Of a stretch of 8,783 nt of DNA, positions 1,137-8,588 are shown piece by piece. The DNA comes from Nitrospinae bacterium RIFCSPLOWO2_12_FULL_45_22 (GTDB lineage: Bacteria; 2-12-FULL-45-22). How positions within the stretch are numbered: position 1 is the stretch's first letter; each line of letters starts with the position of its first letter. The position numbers were made by a program, and so were the translations under genes. The DNA lies in contig MHDQ01000053.1 of assembly GCA_001803565.1 (NCBI GenBank), forward strand, positions 1 through 8,783, read 5' to 3'. The notes beneath the pieces were generated by a model. It saw nothing but the letters and a program-made list of their open reading frames with translations. It was not told the DNA's origin and searched no databases.

Positions 1137-2396
1137 ATGGGTGAAGAAGGAAAGGTGGGACAATTGGGGCCATTAAGCGGGGTAAGGGTGTTGGATTTTA
1201 CCCGGGTTATTGCAGGTCCGTTCTGTACTATGATGCTGGGGGATTTAGGGGCCGAGGTTATCAAGATCGAGCCACCCCACGGTGGTGATGATGCTCGGGC
1301 GGTAGGCCCTCCTTTTGTTAAGGGTGAGAGTGCCTATTTTATGAGCTTCAATCGTAATAAGAGGAGCCTGGCCCTAAATTTGAAAACCCCGGAAGGTAGG
1401 GCTTTAGTCCATCGTTTAGTAGAGCAATCTGATGTAACGGTCGAGAATTTCCGTCCCGGCATAGGTACCAAGCTGGGTATTGACTATCCAACTTTAAAAG
1501 AGATCAACCCCCGCATTATCTGCTGTTCTATTTCTGCCTTTGGCCAGACTGGTCCCTTGTCAAACGAACCAGGATATGATATCACTATCCAGGCCATGTC
1601 TGGTGCGATGAGTATAACCGGCGAGCCCGATAGTCCACCGGTAAAGATCGGTGTTCCTCTAGGAGATATTGCCGGGGGTATGTATGCCGCATATGGCATT
1701 ATCAGTGCCCTCTATGCCCGGGAGCATACTGGCCAGGGCCAGGCTATTGATATTTCCTTGTATGATGCCTTAGTGGCCCAACTCTCTTATCATGCTGGCT
1801 ATTATCTCATGGGGGGAGTCATACCCCAGCCGCAGGGTACAGGCCACCCTAATCTCGTTCCTTATCAGGCCTTTAAGACCAGGGATATTTATATCATAGT
1901 GGCTATTTTTACCGAGGAATTCTGGCAGAAGTTCTGCCAGATCATCGGCAAAGAAGGGCTTATCCAGGACCCTCGCTTCAAAGATAATGCCAGCCGGGTA
2001 AAACACCGCTACTTATTAATCCCTATCCTGGAAAAAGTCTTTGAAACTAAGACCGGTGAGGAGTGGTTAGCTATCCTTAAAGGTATACCTTCGGCGCCTC
2101 TCAATACTATAGATCGGACCCTTAATCACCCACAAACCCATGCGCGCCAAATGATAGAGAATATCTGTCACCCGCAATGCGGTGATATAAGAGTGCTGGG
2201 CAATCCGGTTAAACTATCTGATATGAGTGGCTTTTCGTTTAAGCCTCCGCCATTGCTAGGGCAACATACAGAGGAAATCCTTCGGGATTATCTGGGATAT
2301 TCGCCAGAGGCAATCACAGGGCTAGCAAATAAGCGTATCATAAAGATTAAGGGAAGCGTTCAGCCGTCAGCAATCAGTGGTCAGCTAGACAAATAA
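1137..2396 (+). CDS. Family III (CaiB/BaiF) acyl-CoA transferase
   Basis: It would move CoA between carboxylic acids in the cytoplasm, activating the pathway's acid at the expense of another thioester. The N-terminus carries the family signature GVRVLDFTRVIAGPF (residues 15-29) and LGDLGAEVIKIEPP (34-47). The middle has SGAMSITGEPDSPPVKIGV followed by Asp177, which aligns with the catalytic Asp of formyl-CoA transferase and CaiB, and then the TGQGQAIDISLYDA motif. At 419 residues it is slightly longer than the usual ~400. The extra length is at the C-terminus, where residues from about 406 are encoded by an inverted-repeat element. The start is uncertain. ATG 1137 has a poor ribosome site, whereas TTG 1164 follows AGGTGG by 5 bases and gives a typical family N-terminus beginning L-G-P-L-S-G-V. 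Which acids are donor and acceptor cannot be inferred. Confidence 0.92.
   Translation: MGEEGKVGQLGPLSGVRVLDFTRVIAGPFCTMMLGDLGAEVIKIEPPHGGDDARAVGPPFVKGESAYFMSFNRNKRSLALNLKTPEGRALVHRLVEQSDVTVENFRPGIGTKLGIDYPTLKEINPRIICCSISAFGQTGPLSNEPGYDITIQAMSGAMSITGEPDSPPVKIGVPLGDIAGGMYAAYGIISALYAREHTGQGQAIDISLYDALVAQLSYHAGYYLMGGVIPQPQGTGHPNLVPYQAFKTRDIYIIVAIFTEEFWQKFCQIIGKEGLIQDPRFKDNASRVKHRYLLIPILEKVFETKTGEEWLAILKGIPSAPLNTIDRTLNHPQTHARQMIENICHPQCGDIRVLGNPVKLSDMSGFSFKPPPLLGQHTEEILRDYLGYSPEAITGLANKRIIKIKGSVQPSAISGQLDK
1153..1166 (+). promoter_or_regulatory. Shine-Dalgarno site supporting an alternative TTG start of the CoA-transferase
   Basis: AGGTGG at 1153-1158 stands 5 bases before an in-frame TTG (1164-1166). 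The same AGGTGG word occurs in the clear ribosome site of the DsrE-like gene. The leader of ATG 1137 has only a weak AAGG. Together with the predicted promoter, this makes the TTG a credible true start. Confidence 0.4.
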
Positions 2397-2544: not shown

Positions 2545-3717
2545 ATGCGGCTGTATGAATACGAAGCGAAGAAGATTTTGCCGAGCCGGGGTATAGCAGT
2601 ACCCAGGGGACAGGTCTTGAGCCCGGGAGAGAAGATAGACACCTCACGCCCCGGAGTGCTTAAGGCACAGGTATTAAGCGGTGGCCGCCAGAAGGCCGGT
2701 GGTGTCGTTATCGTTTCTGGGCCTGACCAAATAGCTGATACCGTGCAAGCGCTTTTCCAGAAACCTATACATGGGTTGCCGGTAACAAAGATTATATGGG
2801 AGGAGTTTATAGAAGTAGAGAGAGAGTTTTTCCTGGGGGCTATTTATGATAGTAGCCGAAAGAGCCCCCTGGTATTCTTTAGCCCTGAAGGCGGCGTAGA
2901 GGTAGAGCTGCTGACGGAAAAAGATCCCGGGCGCCTTTTCTATAGAGATTTTGATATCCTGCAAGGTTTTTCTGAGTATCAGGCCCGAGAGCTGATCGCG
3001 GAAGCAGGTTTGCAGGGATCAGAGCTGCTAAAAATATCTGATATCTTGTACCGTATGGTGTCCCTGTTTCTGGATCTTGATGCTACCATACTAGAGATTA
3101 ATCCCCTGGCACAAACGAAGGATGGTAATTATATAGCCCTGGACTGCCATATAGATATTGATGATGATGCCCTCTATCGGCATAAGGAATTAGAAACACA
3201 GTTTGGTATTCTAAAGAGAGAAGGAGGGGGAGGTCGGCAGGTAACCGAGCTAGAAAGGCAGGCGGCAGCTATTGATAACCTGGACCACCGGGGGGTAGCG
3301 GGCCGGGTGATAGAGTTTGACGGGAATCTCGCCCTCCTGATTGGCGGTGGTGGAGCAAGCCTGGCAGCGTTTGATGCTATCAGACGCCATGGTGGCCGGC
3401 CAGCTAATTATTGTGAGATCGGTGGTAACCCGACGGTCCTTAAAGTAAAGGAGTTGACCAAACTACTACTATCTAAACCCGGGGTAGAGAAGATTGCTGT
3501 AATAATGAATGTAGTAAGCAATACCCGGGTGGATTTAGTAGCCCGGGGAGTGATAAAAGGGGTGCTGGAATTGGGCAGAGACCCAGCTAAAACCATTGCT
3601 GTCTTCCGTATCCCGGGGGCCTGGGAAGAAGAAGGGTATAAGATATTAGCCAGGTATGGGGTGCCTTATTGCGGCCGGACGGTCTCTATTGATGAGGCAG
3701 CTAAGGAGGCCGTATAA
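2545..3717 (+). CDS. SucC-like ATP-grasp CoA ligase beta subunit, without an alpha partner nearby
   Basis: The family couples ATP or GTP to formation or breakdown of an acyl-CoA, classically succinyl-CoA. The sequence is full length (390 residues) and starts with the typical MRLYEYEAKKIL. It has KAQVLSGGRQKAGG (40-53) of the ATP-grasp domain, FLGAIYD and SPEGGVEVE, and LEINPL with Asn186 plus Asp200, matching the Mg-binding Asn/Asp of SucC. The C-terminal CoA-ligase domain has EFDGNLALLIGGGGASLA (257-274), HGGRPANYCEIGGN and IPGAWEEEGYKILA. It is divergent: the usual N-G-A-G-L-A-M is I-G-G-G-G-A-S, and the usual IFGGI-RCD stretch is VVSNTRVD. The start ATG has AAGGA 7 bases ahead. No SucD-like alpha subunit, which bears the phosphorylated His, is present in the window. 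It may pair with a distant alpha subunit or use another acid. Confidence 0.85.
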   Translation: MRLYEYEAKKILPSRGIAVPRGQVLSPGEKIDTSRPGVLKAQVLSGGRQKAGGVVIVSGPDQIADTVQALFQKPIHGLPVTKIIWEEFIEVEREFFLGAIYDSSRKSPLVFFSPEGGVEVELLTEKDPGRLFYRDFDILQGFSEYQARELIAEAGLQGSELLKISDILYRMVSLFLDLDATILEINPLAQTKDGNYIALDCHIDIDDDALYRHKELETQFGILKREGGGGRQVTELERQAAAIDNLDHRGVAGRVIEFDGNLALLIGGGGASLAAFDAIRRHGGRPANYCEIGGNPTVLKVKELTKLLLSKPGVEKIAVIMNVVSNTRVDLVARGVIKGVLELGRDPAKTIAVFRIPGAWEEEGYKILARYGVPYCGRTVSIDEAAKEAV

Positions 3718-3766
3718 TCTGCGTCCTAAATATAATTTATAACAGTTATTCGGGGAGGTGGGAAAT

Positions 3767-4195
3767 ATGGAACTGTTACTTATTTGCCGAGATGCTTTAG
3801 AGAATTCTATTATTGGTAATCTGTTAGTAGCCCTGGAGGAGAAAAAGGCCGGGGCAGATGTAGGAATCCTTTTTACCCAGGAGGCGTTAGCGTCTTTAGC
3901 GGGCCAATCCTTAGATTGGTCACCACTGTTCCGGGATCGAGATACCAGGGCAAAGATAGCCAAGAATGCTAAAAGTATGGGTATTCCCTTAGCCCATGCC
4001 AAGGATGCCCGGCAAACTGATACTTATCAGTTGTTAAAGGCAGCAAAAGAGGCTGGCGTAAATCTGATGGCCTGTCCAGCCTGGACAGCCTTGTTAGGTA
4101 TTCAGGAACGATTACCTGGGGAGTTAACCAAAGTTGACTCCGCAGCCACCCTGAAGTGCCTGAAAGAGGCTAAGAGGGTAATAGGTACTTTTTAA
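3767..4195 (+). CDS. DsrE/DsrF-like small protein
   Basis: This is a 142-residue cytoplasmic protein that resembles DsrE-type proteins, a family of small proteins that includes sulfur carriers in sulfur relay and also many of unknown role. It has an alternating beta/alpha pattern, with a first strand MELLLICRDA, a second strand GADVGILFT, and the sequence GVNLMACPAWTALLG (97-111). Cys103 sits where the family's reactive cysteine usually lies after a strand. Cys7 and Cys131 are the other cysteines. I chose ATG 3767 because GGAGG (3754-3758) is 8 bases upstream; an upstream GTG at 3758 overlaps that ribosome site and is unlikely. It follows the SucC-like gene by 49 bases. A role in sulfur or persulfide supply to the Fe-S or Sec enzyme is speculation; family assignment is moderate. 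Confidence 0.7.
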   Translation: MELLLICRDALENSIIGNLLVALEEKKAGADVGILFTQEALASLAGQSLDWSPLFRDRDTRAKIAKNAKSMGIPLAHAKDARQTDTYQLLKAAKEAGVNLMACPAWTALLGIQERLPGELTKVDSAATLKCLKEAKRVIGTF

Positions 4196-4255: not shown

Positions 4256-4399
4256 ACATTTAGCCACAGAGTGACGGAGGACACAGAGTAGCAGCAGGGC
4301 CTTGCCCTGCCATAAAGGTAAAGGCTTTAAGCAGAGCAAGGCTCTGCAACTACCCTTCCTCTGAGTTCTCTGGGCCTCTGTGGCTGAACTGTTACCTAA
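4256..4399. repeat. CACAGAG-type nested inverted-repeat element with internal hairpins
   Basis: The outer arms start AGCCACAGAG (4262-4271) and end CTCTGTGGCT (4376-4385), with further imperfect pairing of CACAGAG words inside. The inner arms contain two hairpins: GCAGGGC-CTT-GCCCTGC (4294-4310) and GCAGAGC-AAG-GCTCTGC (4331-4347). These are inverted copies of each other, differing by a compensatory G-C to A-T swap. TAAAG (4313-4317) and CTTTA (4325-4329) can pair in the centre. The right end continues into TTACCTAAT (4392-4400), as in the element near 5302. There is no credible coding frame; the 4196-4431 spacer holds this element, the two hairpins and the next ribosome site. Confidence 0.8.
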
Positions 4400-4431: not shown

Positions 4432-5280
4432 ATGGCATGGACGGAATGGAAAAGAACGGACGTTGCAGGATGTAAGCAGGAAGAGATCATTTATGAAAAG
4501 AAGTACCGGGATAAGGGTGGAGGTGTAGCCCGGATTCTCTTCAATCGTCCCCAAAGGATGAATTCCTTTACTGAAAAAGGTATACAGGAATTGTGCTTAT
4601 GTTTAGATAATGCCAGTAATGATTCCACTATTGGGGTAGTAGTTATAAGCGCGGTAGGAGATCATTTCGGCACTGGTGGGGATGTTGAATGGGAGGCCGG
4701 TCCCTCGTTCCGCTACTTGTTTCTCAGCTCTACTGGCTACAATCGAATTATTCGTTTTTGCCGTAAACCTATTATCGCTGCCGTAAAAGGCTATTGCATT
4801 GGTGGCTCCCACCACCTGGCCTATTTTTGTGACTTTACTATCGCAGCAGATAATGCCATCTTTGGTCAGAATGGTCCCCGGGTTGGGAGCCCAGCCCATG
4901 GGTTTGTCGTCTCATACCTGGCCCGGGTGGTAGGGGCCAAGAAGGCCCGGGAGATATGGATGCTCTGCCGGCGTTACACAGCCCAGGAGGCATTACAAAT
5001 GGGCCTGGCAAATAAAGTAGTCCCCGTGAAGCAGTTAGATGCAGAGGTTGATCAGTGGTGCGATGAGCTCATGGATATAAGCCCCACCTGTTTATCCCTG
5101 GTAAAGGCCAGCTTTGATGGTGATATAGACTATATGGATGGTGATTTTGGTCGCTATCTGGTGCAGATGGCGCCGGATTTTTTTGATGGCGAAGAGGTAA
5201 AGGAAGCGCAGCAGGCTTTCTTTGAGAAAAGGACACCCAATTTCTGGAAGAACCGTATGCCTAAAGATGCTGGCAGCTAA
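4432..5280 (+). CDS. Crotonase-fold enzyme of the MenB/BadI group with altered active site
   Basis: Crotonases act on CoA thioesters. The closest named relatives I recognise are MenB (naphthoyl-CoA synthase) and BadI (2-ketocyclohexanecarboxyl-CoA hydrolase), from the shared block AIFGQNGPRVGS (142-153) and VGAKKAREIWMLCRRY (167-182), then LANKVVP and the tail FFEKRTPNFWK. The oxyanion-hole parts are present: FGTGGD (79-84) and GYCIGGSHH (120-128). Differences matter: MenB/BadI have S-x-D-x-G at the active site, whereas this has S-P-A-H-G (153-157), so the catalytic Asp is Ala. The C-terminal Tyr of MenB aligns with Phe. A roughly 20-residue N-terminal extension precedes the first strand. The start ATG follows AAAGGAGGG with 8 bases between. 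The reaction (hydratase, hydrolase or other) cannot be assigned; anaerobic context and neighbours suggest a cyclic or branched acyl-CoA. Confidence 0.87.
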   Translation: MAWTEWKRTDVAGCKQEEIIYEKKYRDKGGGVARILFNRPQRMNSFTEKGIQELCLCLDNASNDSTIGVVVISAVGDHFGTGGDVEWEAGPSFRYLFLSSTGYNRIIRFCRKPIIAAVKGYCIGGSHHLAYFCDFTIAADNAIFGQNGPRVGSPAHGFVVSYLARVVGAKKAREIWMLCRRYTAQEALQMGLANKVVPVKQLDAEVDQWCDELMDISPTCLSLVKASFDGDIDYMDGDFGRYLVQMAPDFFDGEEVKEAQQAFFEKRTPNFWKNRMPKDAGS

Positions 5281-5301: not shown

Positions 5302-5440
5302 CGTAACCGTTCACCACAGAGAACGCAGAGACTTGGTTCCTGCGTCATTGGTTAATAATTAATGACTGATGACCAATGACTATTTATTCTCTGCGTTCTC
5401 AGCGTGCTCCGTGGTTATCCGTGGCGAATGATTACCTAAT
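5302..5440. repeat. Second CACAGAG-type nested inverted-repeat element
   Basis: The left arm around 5302-5331 contains GTAACCGTTCACCAC and GAGAACGCAGAGA. The right arm 5388-5437 contains TCTCTGCGTTCTC (a perfect 13-base match in reverse complement) and GTGGCGAATGATTAC, giving the outer pairing GTAAyCrTTCrCCAC. The inner arms are GTCATTGGT (5344-5352) and ACCAATGAC (5372-5380). The right end TTACCTAAT (5432-5440) repeats the end of the element at 4256-4399, so the two are relatives. The spacer 5281-5475 contains no gene beyond this element. Confidence 0.8.
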
Positions 5441-5475: not shown

Positions 5476-6621
5476 ATGAATACCAAAGATATACTTGAAC
5501 AATTATCTTACACCAATATTTCTAAAACCTCGCAGCAGGCTATAGGGGAATGGAAGGCCCGGGGGAAAAAGGTCATCGGATATACCTGTCTCTATGTGCC
5601 TGAGGAGATCATGTATGCATTAGATGTGCTGCCAATAAGGATATACGGTAGCCTTAATGGCAGTACCAAAGGGGAATCATTACTCCAGGTGAATATATGC
5701 TCCTTTGTCCGGAGTTGCCTGTCTCAGGGGCTAGAAGGTGAATACAATTTCTTAGACGGTATCGTTGCTCCCAGGACTTGCAGTCAGATAGTTAAGCTCT
5801 ATGATGTCTGGGACTTCTCCATAAAGATGCCTTTTTCCCACTTGATAGACCATCCTCACATGGTTTCTGATCTGGCCATTTCTTATTATAATAAAGAGAT
5901 AAACAAATTTGTAAAACATCTTGAAGAGTTTACCGGTAACAGTCTTACCGAGGCTAATTTGAGGCATGCTATAGAGGTTTATAATGAGAATAGGCGCCTG
6001 CTGCGGGAGATATACAACTTAAGGAAAGCAGAAATGCCGCCTATTAATGGAGTAGAGACATTAGATATTATCCGCTCGACAACCATACTCCCCAAAGACC
6101 AGAGCAATGCCCTTTTAAAGGGATTACTAACAGTCCTCAAAGAAAGGAAGGTGGACCCTTTCAGAGGGAAAGGACACCCAAGAATTCTGATTACAGGTAT
6201 CATTCTCGATAACTTTGCCCTGGTACAACTAGTAGAAGATTCAGGCGCGATCGTCGTAGCCGACGATCTATGTGTGGGGAGCAGGTATTTCTGGGATATG
6301 GTTACCCTTAATGGTACTCCCTTGAACTCTCTTACCAGATACTACATAGAGAAAATCCCTTGTGCCTGTATTTATCCCCGCGATAAGCGCTTCCAGCACA
6401 TAGCGTATATGGTGAGAGATTTTAATGTAGCCGGGGTTATAAGCTTCCAGATAAAATTCTGTGATAACATTACCTATGATAACCCCCGCTTGAAGGATGA
6501 GCTGGATGAGTTAGGTATCCCGGTACTGGAACTTGATACAGAATACTCTAATATAGGTGTCGGACAGCTTAAGACCAGGGTTCAGGCATTCCTGGAAGTA
6601 ATGGCGAGAGGCCAGGTTTAA
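5476..6621 (+). CDS. 2-Hydroxyacyl-CoA dehydratase / benzoyl-CoA reductase subunit, HgdB/BcrC type
   Basis: This is one half of a heterodimeric Fe-S enzyme that uses ATP-driven low-potential electrons from a separate activator ATPase to dehydrate 2-hydroxyacyl-CoA or reduce an aromatic acyl-CoA. Three cysteines in the family's ligand positions are present: Cys75 in NICSFVRSCL, Cys102 in APRTCSQIVKLYD, and Cys329 in FQIKFCDNITYDNP. The C-terminal half has DDLCVGSRYFWDMV and the ending DTEYSNIGVGQLKTRVQAFLE, as in HgdB/BcrC-type chains. The length of 381 residues matches BcrC (~380). I use ATG 5476 with GGAG (5464-5467) 8 bases before it; a TTG eight codons upstream is less likely. The next gene begins 20 bases downstream, so the two are surely co-transcribed. 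Substrate class (dehydratase or ring reductase) is open. Confidence 0.93.
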   Translation: MNTKDILEQLSYTNISKTSQQAIGEWKARGKKVIGYTCLYVPEEIMYALDVLPIRIYGSLNGSTKGESLLQVNICSFVRSCLSQGLEGEYNFLDGIVAPRTCSQIVKLYDVWDFSIKMPFSHLIDHPHMVSDLAISYYNKEINKFVKHLEEFTGNSLTEANLRHAIEVYNENRRLLREIYNLRKAEMPPINGVETLDIIRSTTILPKDQSNALLKGLLTVLKERKVDPFRGKGHPRILITGIILDNFALVQLVEDSGAIVVADDLCVGSRYFWDMVTLNGTPLNSLTRYYIEKIPCACIYPRDKRFQHIAYMVRDFNVAGVISFQIKFCDNITYDNPRLKDELDELGIPVLELDTEYSNIGVGQLKTRVQAFLEVMARGQV

Positions 6622-6641
6622 CAAATTTAGGAGGGGCAGCC

Positions 6642-7889
6642 ATGGGACAAACAGGAGAAGGAATTAAAAGATTTTCCCTAAAGACCAGTAAGCAACTATG
6701 GCCATTAATTAAGGATTTTTATGCCAAGGCCAGGCAAAAGAAAAAAGAAGGAAAACCTATCTGTTGGTATATGTCAGGGGTACCTAAAGAGTTGCTTTAT
6801 GCGATGGATATCACACCGATAATGGCGGAGGGATTCTCTGGACAAATGGCCGCCAAGGGTGAGGCAGTAGCAAAATACCTGGAGCTTGCCGAAGTAGAGG
6901 GTTTTGGGAGGGACTCGTGATCCTTGCACAGGGGCTTCGTGGGAGCCCTCTTGTCCGAAGATGACCTTATTATACCCAGACCCGATTTTATGCTAGGTCT
7001 TACCTGCATGTGTGACGGACTGTCCAAATCGAGTGTGGCTATTACCGAAAAGGTTAAAATACCCCTTTTTCTTATAGATGCTCCAAGGGCCATCCAGATT
7101 ACCCCTGATGGTGAAATAGACGAAGAGAAGATTCAGGATTATGTAGAATATATGGCGCTACAGTATGGTGAACTGGTAAAATTTTTAGAAAATCAAACCG
7201 GTCACAAGCTAGATAAGGAAAAGTTAAAAGAGACCTGCCGACTTACCAATCAGGCCCTTGAATTATGGGATGAGACAAGTGAGCTGAGAAAGGCCATCCC
7301 CTCACCCATGAGTGCCTTAGATGAGGCGATCTTTCTCTTCATCCCTATGGCCTTCCTTGGCACAAGGGAAGCAGTAGCTATCCTCGAAGGGGTTAGAAAT
7401 GAAGTAGCAGCGCGGGTAAAAAATGGCCAGGGCGTCATTGATGATGAAAGACACCGTTTACTTTTGCTAAGTGGCCCTGCCTGGTGGTATGACCTGGGTA
7501 TTTTAAATTACTTTGAAGAGCTTGGTGCCGTTCTAGTTAAAATGGGGGTAGATATAGGCTGGGCAAAAGGTAGGTTAGACCCAGAAAGGCCGGCGGAAAG
7601 CTGGGCTAAGCGCTTGATCTTGAATTATGGTACCTTAGATTCCTTACCGGTTCATATAGCCTGTATCAAGGAGCTTGTTAGGGATTATAAAGCGGATGGT
7701 GCGGTTATCCTCTCGCATTGGGGATGCCGGGTACTGGGAGGGCAGCACCTGGCCATTAAAGAGGCTATATATCAAGAGTTTGGCATACCTACCCTTATCC
7801 TCGATGGCGATTTATGCGATAGCCGCCACCGTGCCAGCCGCGAACAAGACCTGAATAAGATAGAAGAGTTTATTGAAATGCTGGAATAG
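6642..7889 (+). CDS. Selenocysteine-containing HgdA/BcrB-type Fe-S subunit (in-frame TGA read as Sec)
   Basis: This is the partner of the preceding subunit. The frame from ATG 6642 (AGGAGGGG at 6629-6636) runs to TAG 7887-7889, interrupted only by TGA at 6918-6920. Codons before and after the TGA are in the same phase, giving 415 residues, close to BcrB (~430). Family features on both sides: PICWYMSGVPKELLYAMDI (39-57); then GFGRDS-TGA-SLHRGFVG, which aligns with the family's G-Y-S-R-D-x-C-S-Y-x-R; CMCDG with Cys124; WYDLGILNYFEELGAVLV; Cys362 in SHWGCRVLGGQ; and an ending LDGDLCDSRH...IEEFIEML. The TGA replaces the first cluster-ligating Cys, so the set would be Sec93/Cys124/Cys362. A hairpin of SECIS type follows. 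Alternatives are a nonsense mutation or sequencing error at this Cys codon. The next gene follows 6 bases after the stop. No activator ATPase is in view. Confidence 0.88.
6918..6949 (+). promoter_or_regulatory. Sec-encoding TGA with candidate bacterial SECIS hairpin
   Basis: After the TGA come 10 bases. GGGGCT (6931-6936) then pairs with AGCCCT (6944-6949) in a 6-bp stem with one G-U pair. The 7-base interval TCGTGGG may close further by a U-G pair, leaving the loop CGUGG with G second. The loop lies 16-23 bases after the TGA, inside the window where bacterial SECIS loops recognised by SelB are found. ACA (6928-6930) and TGT (6952-6954) could extend the base of the stem past a small bulge. 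SelB binding is inferred from form and spacing only. Confidence 0.7.
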
Positions 7890-7895
7890 TCAGGT

Positions 7896-8588
7896 ATGAC
7901 ATGGGATAAAAAACCAATTGGCATTGTTTGTGCACTGGCAAGGGAGGTCGAGGGATTCCATAATTTATGGGATAAGGGTCAATACCAGACTTTTACGATC
8001 AAAGGGAGGAATTTTTATCCAGGTTTTATGGCGGGTAGAGAGACTGTTATAGTAGAATCAGGCTGGGGTAAAGTACGGGCAGCTTCTGCTACGCAATTAT
8101 TGCTAGACCAGTTCTCCCCGGCTGCTATTATAAATGTGGGCGTAGCCGGTGCCATTAACCCTGAGAGGGAGATTGGTGATATTATATTCTCTGAGGCAAC
8201 TCTAGAATATGATTTTCATAGCAATGAAGAGGTGGGACAAAAACCCAAAAAGGCCGATAAAAACCTTCTACAACTAGCCCTAAAAGCCAGTCTATCCTCC
8301 TCTTATCAATCACAAATCTTCACTGGCTTGATAATATCTGGTGATCAGGATATTAATAGCCGAGAAAAGAAACAATTCCTATGGGAGAAGTATAAGGCCC
8401 AGTGCGGCGAGTGGGAAGGAGCCGCTATAGCTACAGTAGCCAGGATCAATAATATACCCTGGCTGATAATAAGGGCTATATCGGATTTGGCAGAGGAGAA
8501 TTTTGCCTCAGAGTTTGAGAACCATCTGGCTTTGGTAGCCCGGAACTCGGCAGATACAGCAGTAAGGCTACTCAATGAATTAGATTAG
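7896..8588 (+). CDS. MTA/SAH-nucleosidase-type (MtnN-like) purine nucleosidase
   Basis: Members cleave the glycosidic bond of methylthioadenosine, S-adenosylhomocysteine, 5'-deoxyadenosine or futalosine in the cytoplasm. The 230-residue length is normal. Visible motifs are GIVCALAREVEG (9-20) with Glu17 in the place of the E. coli catalytic-site Glu12; VESGWGKVRAASATQLLL; INVGVAGAINPE; and SGDQDI. Also present are GEWEGAAIATVA with Glu174, and RAISD with Asp197, the general acid position. The E-M-E of typical MtnN is E-W-E here, and the middle loop is diverged, so the nucleoside used may differ. The ATG is only 6 bases after the previous stop, with a weak site (GGA overlapping the end of that gene), suggesting translational coupling to the Sec-containing subunit. 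A metabolic reason for this coupling is not obvious; removal of a 5'-deoxyadenosine or SAH by-product is a guess. Confidence 0.85.
   Translation: MTWDKKPIGIVCALAREVEGFHNLWDKGQYQTFTIKGRNFYPGFMAGRETVIVESGWGKVRAASATQLLLDQFSPAAIINVGVAGAINPEREIGDIIFSEATLEYDFHSNEEVGQKPKKADKNLLQLALKASLSSSYQSQIFTGLIISGDQDINSREKKQFLWEKYKAQCGEWEGAAIATVARINNIPWLIIRAISDLAEENFASEFENHLALVARNSADTAVRLLNELD

Follow-up and report, generated by a model that had tools for sequence, protein, structure and literature searches.

At an open [4Fe-4S] site, benzoyl-CoA reductases and 2-hydroxyacyl-CoA dehydratases catalyze reductions that are among the most demanding in biology. A gene for a member of this superfamily lies on a short contig of a draft Nitrospinae genome (8,783 nucleotides, analyzed in full and referred to here as the window), and its reading frame is interrupted once, by a TGA codon, where a cysteine ligand of that cluster is expected. 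Is this TGA a true stop, an error, or a codon for selenocysteine (Sec)? By examining the reading frame, the alignment to solved structures, the paralogs and Sec machinery of the same genome, and a selection of other genomes, we find the Sec reading of the TGA (6918-6920) strongly supported, while selenium incorporation, the cluster and the activity remain inferences. We consider it highly probable that the codon specifies Sec and that the product is the catalytic subunit of an ATP-activated radical enzyme with two subunits, belonging to the benzoyl-CoA reductase (BCR)/2-hydroxyacyl-CoA dehydratase superfamily.

The gene (6642..7889, + strand) encodes a catalytic subunit of the HgdA/BzdO type (HGD-D) of 415 residues, and a Shine-Dalgarno-like AGGAGGGG (6629..6636, + strand) precedes its ATG at 6642. 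The frame consists of 92 sense codons, the TGA at residue 93, 322 further sense codons and a TAG, and examination of the whole frame revealed no other stop or frameshift; the first-pass annotation, which had described two such stretches around a single TGA in a protein without decay, is confirmed on both points. The PF06050 (HGD-D) match runs across the TGA, covering residues 46-414 of the joined protein (E 1.3e-63; 216.1 bits against a gathering score of 28.4). Constraint is alike on either side: compared with a paralog on contig C148 of the same genome, identity is 58% and 59% for the two parts, and in both, to a similar extent, the changes fall mostly in codon position 3.

The position of the TGA was assessed by alignment to the structures of BzdO (8s02_A) and HadB (3o3m_A). 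Residues 93, 124 and 362 align with BzdO Cys95, Cys128 and Cys380, and likewise with the corresponding cysteines of HadB, so that the earlier claims of a TGA at an Fe-S ligand cysteine and of two retained ligand cysteines (Cys124, codon 7011..7013; Cys362, codon 7725..7727; both + strand) also stand. In BzdO it is through these three cysteines that the protein binds its catalytic [4Fe-4S]-OH2 cluster, and Glu65 lies beside the water (PMC11971306); its counterpart in the window protein, counted along the structure alignment, is Glu63. From the alignment to Cys95 and this published ligand assignment, the TGA (+ strand) falls on a ligand of the substrate-facing cluster. The three cysteine cluster ligands typical of HGD-D proteins are accordingly not all present, two cysteines and one Sec codon forming a conservative variant. 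An AlphaFold model of the window's two proteins alone reached a pLDDT of only 37 and was not used as support.

What kind of enzyme the gene belongs to is suggested mainly by its partner, an HgdB/BzdN-type HGD-D subunit encoded just upstream (5476..6621, + strand). The partner carries all six cysteines that bind the [8Fe-9S] double cubane in BzdN (positions 36/73/100/263/293/327), its best matches are double-cubane and bzdN models, and since it keeps all six a reductase resembling benzoyl-CoA reductase fits better than a plain dehydratase. It is still possible, if less likely, that Sec is present in a 2-hydroxyacyl-CoA dehydratase of the HadBC/HgdAB type: HadB is the best NCBIfam match of the catalytic subunit, and neither protein has a histidine at the position of BzdO His131. 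Against this, HadC has alanine at the Cys263 position of the double cubane, and the crotonase encoded nearby resembles BadI/MenB. The first-pass annotation had left the enzyme as a dehydratase or reductase; of these, the reductase half is favored and the dehydratase half is the less likely.

The equivalog cut-offs of the bzd type (TIGR03191/TIGR03190) are unmet (82.3 against 448.6 bits for the catalytic subunit, 211.3 against 453.8 for the partner), as are those of HadBC (NF052455/NF052456; 136.6 against 750 and 206.3 against 700). Like the window pair, the BzdNO core of class I benzoyl-CoA reductase (PDB 8s02; PMC11971306) consists of two HGD-D subunits, with the same catalytic-cluster ligand positions, Glu65, and six double-cubane cysteines in the partner. 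It differs in that the window protein has Sec for Cys95 and leucine (Leu95 and Leu127) for Tyr97 and His131, scores only 82 bits to the bzdO model, and has no adjoining bzdPQ. Compared with (R)-2-hydroxyisocaproyl-CoA dehydratase, HadBC (PDB 3o3m), the three-ligand coordination of the cluster is the same, but Sec stands in place of Cys84 (in HadB numbering, as counted along the alignment) and HadC lacks the full double-cubane set. As HadB is the best solved-structure match (E 6.7e-29) and leucine occupies the Tyr97 and His131 positions, these sequence comparisons leave room for a substrate other than benzoyl-CoA itself and for a chemistry that may differ from benzoyl-CoA reduction.

The neighboring genes, all on the + strand, encode a family III CoA-transferase (1137..2396), a succinyl-CoA-synthetase-beta-like ATP-grasp protein (2545..3717), a DsrE-like small protein (3758..4195, a weak match), a crotonase nearest to MenB and BadI (2-ketocyclohexanecarboxyl-CoA hydrolase) models although below their cut-offs (4432..5280), and an intact MTA/SAH nucleosidase (7896..8588) that starts 6 bases past the stop of the Sec gene. 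The CoA-transferase and the crotonase likely belong to the same pathway as the Sec enzyme, and together with the succinyl-CoA-synthetase-like protein they would fit an anaerobic acyl-CoA pathway. The window, which is the whole contig, has no activase (BcrAD/BzdPQ); ten BcrAD/BadFG matches are present elsewhere in the genome. A DASS/citrate-type sodium:anion symporter whose gene is truncated by the start of the contig (3-1052) may import the acid substrate of the pathway. Imperfect inverted repeats occupy three intergenic gaps (2404-2473, 4259-4388 and 5319-5400), two of which contain CACAGAG or GCAGAGA/CTCTG-type sequence.

The source genome (G000) is a fragmented draft of 3.67 Mb in 321 contigs, 85% complete, with whose composition the contig is coherent. 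It encodes a very large expansion of the family, with 59 open reading frames of the HGD-D type, of which some are partial (in the window and in L047-L050, L053, L054 and L080-L106). Among 35 alpha-type HGD-D proteins from this genome, column 93 is Cys in 32 and Sec in three, whereas none of the 35 departs from Cys at columns 124 and 362; the check proposed earlier, for relatives with TGA or Cys at this residue, has within this genome returned two further TGA genes. The first is the paralog on C148, whose TGA lies at exactly the same codon and which has its own adjoining HgdB/BzdN-like partner. The second, on C231, encodes a bzdO-like protein (404.6 bits; cut-off 448.6) whose TGA, in the motif GFARDL-U-SYLK, falls on the same ligand; next to it lie UbiD genes and a bzdN-like gene (433.6 against 453.8). 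Nowhere else in the alpha-type HGD-D genes does an in-domain TGA occur, and with about 400 columns available, the probability that three in-frame TGAs coincide by chance is about 6e-6. The bzdN-like/bzdO-like pair with Sec at this ligand (L106:3865-6518, + strand) has nearby two UbiD-like genes, one of them partial, and an Mrp/NUBPL-type ATPase; possibly this is an anaerobic aromatic-acid locus.

A tree built by maximum likelihood places the window protein as sister to the C148 protein (100/100), and the C231 protein as sister to a Cys protein on C153 (100/100). Its strongly supported branches force at least two separate Cys/Sec changes, and that the exchange happened independently more than once within a single genome suggests that selection, and not drift, was at work.

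The paralogs also bear on whether Sec93 binds the cluster at all. Sec could be inserted without being a permanent ligand, acting instead as a redox-active or hemilabile residue, perhaps together with Cys41 and Cys122, with the third ligand site taken over or vacated by another cysteine. Cys41 is found in both sister Sec proteins and in none of the 32 Cys paralogs, and in the alignment it occupies the place of Ala45 of BzdO, which neighbors Glu65 of the active site; Cys122 is uncommon elsewhere. We nevertheless regard this arrangement as improbable: the column is an invariant cluster-ligand cysteine in 32/32 Cys paralogs, and the C231 protein has Sec with neither Cys41 nor Cys122. A Sec93 that ligates the cluster, as inferred from the alignment, is the reading we retain.

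Could the TGA instead encode one of the ordinary amino acids, namely Trp, Gly or Cys? In-frame TGA is found in several genes, and the other genes of the window all end in TAA or TAG. Across the stretches that were read, however, TGA terminates 32/152 large ORFs, mostly with only short read-through, from which we reject reassignment of TGA throughout the genome: it is otherwise a normal stop. The tRNA with anticodon UCA that was found is the tRNA-Sec (75.3 bits; also called by ARAGORN), and the confinement of in-domain TGA to this one ligand position likewise speaks against general decoding, leaving the ordinary-amino-acid reading very little room. A long TGA read-through on L054 was considered as a further selenoprotein and rejected, as it resembles two adjacent in-frame oxidoreductase subunit genes.

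The selA, selB, selC and selD genes, which the first-pass annotation had named as a check on its Sec proposal, are all accounted for. Besides the tRNA-Sec, the genome encodes SelA and SelB side by side, and a SelD (L049:1749-2804, - strand) that has its own in-frame TGA in GGGUACK and is itself a selenoprotein. The contig of the SelD gene also encodes a Cys-type relative of the window protein. With this machinery and with a 58% identical paralog bearing TGA at the same codon, the proposal of Sec at the TGA is supported.

A candidate bacterial SECIS hairpin directly follows the TGA (6921..6965, + strand), its apical loop lying 18 nt past the UGA and containing a G, and gives the reading modest support. 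All three Sec genes have a possible hairpin with a G in a loop lying 16-18 nt after the UGA, that of the C148 paralog at the same position as in the window gene. Tested against a synonymous-codon null, the hairpins gave p about 0.04 for the window gene and 0.06 and 0.01 for the others, each unadjusted; the fold of the window hairpin has a shuffle z-score of only -1.5, and Rfam gave no match in the window. Because several Cys paralogs fold into equally strong hairpins, the SECIS evidence is supportive and not decisive.

The distribution of the TGA version was surveyed in 98 genomes, then in 386 relatives, plus small phyla of 3, 1, 3 and 39 genomes. None of about 430 sampled genomes has it: there were many HGD-D matches, with no TGA inside. 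Sampling was shallow in places (in the 386-genome search only four candidates were scored in each genome with many), and the source phylum is represented by only two genomes. Profile scans of contigs with the window protein and with a two-Sec alignment found no relative, the window's own genome possibly being excluded. As no other sampled genome has TGA here, cross-species confirmation is lacking. That absence and the draft state of the genome are what could favor a pseudogene, or a sequencing or assembly error that turned a Cys codon into TGA and made a remnant of the downstream 321-codon ORF, but this is hardly credible given a TGA at one codon common to three genes, a frame otherwise intact and similar constraint on both sides.

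Returning to the Sec-ligated reductase, we hypothesize the following mechanism. The SelA/SelB/SelD/tRNA-Sec system of the genome would decode the TGA as Sec. A BcrAD/HgdC-type activase encoded elsewhere in the genome would feed low-potential electrons to the double-cubane partner. Their next acceptor would be a [4Fe-4S] cluster that has Sec93, Cys124 and Cys362 as protein ligands and a water molecule bound to its fourth iron, and from this cluster electrons or hydrogen would go to an acyl-CoA; the CoA-transferase and BadI-like crotonase may handle substrate and product. The selenolate ligand is inferred to tune the potential of the cluster or to guard it against oxidation. That radical acyl-CoA (Birch-type) reductases contain a natural selenolate-ligated catalytic [4Fe-4S] cluster, which evolved on two independent occasions within a single genome and both times at one and the same ligand of the iron, we regard as likely.

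How does this compare with known selenoproteins? Selenium has been tied to benzoyl-CoA reduction before: BamF is a selenoprotein of class II benzoyl-CoA reductase, and BamE of the same enzyme is another (PMC5109826). The class II enzyme, however, uses tungsten, is independent of ATP and is built of unrelated proteins. Another comparison is with DUF523, which we take to be the TudS family. TudS is a one-domain relative of the BCR/2-hydroxyacyl-CoA dehydratase superfamily (PMC11971306). DUF523 (COG1683/YbbK) is a predicted selenoprotein in Desulfosarcina sp. BuS5, with the motif SxSUG and no TGA homolog found in other organisms (PMC12013277); its Sec is also a prediction, but the protein is single-domain and no CoA reductase or dehydratase. 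A catalogue from May 2026, which covers 119 families and subfamilies of prokaryotic selenoproteins, has no entry for benzoyl-CoA reductase, 2-hydroxyacyl-CoA dehydratase or PF06050, the predicted DUF523 selenoprotein being the nearest (PMC13188914), and a search for literature pairing selenocysteine or selenoprotein with these enzymes found no such protein among the papers retrieved. Sec-containing HdrA, MvhD/VhuD, an Fe-S oxidoreductase-like protein (GlpC) and nitrogenase-alpha are known or predicted (PMC13188914), so an Fe-S selenoprotein is not new in itself. They share with the window protein, as inferred here, the use of Sec in an Fe-S or electron-transfer protein, but belong to different families. 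None of them is known to us to have Sec at the [4Fe-4S]-OH2 cluster that faces the substrate in a radical acyl-CoA enzyme, and for this family of radical enzymes Sec at the catalytic cluster is new, to the extent that these searches show.

If the Sec reading holds, these proteins of an anaerobic bacterium would be, to present knowledge, the first selenium-containing forms of the enzymes that degrade aromatic and other hard-to-reduce CoA compounds without oxygen. The use of selenium in anaerobic aromatic degradation may be under-counted, because standard annotation would split such a gene in two. The natural Sec/Cys pair at one ligand offers a ready-made experiment on the role of selenium in a catalytic iron-sulfur cluster, to which selenium adds spectroscopic handles (Se X-ray absorption and 77Se EPR). 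If true, the finding would mean that selenium serves to tune or protect the very cluster that reduces the substrate.
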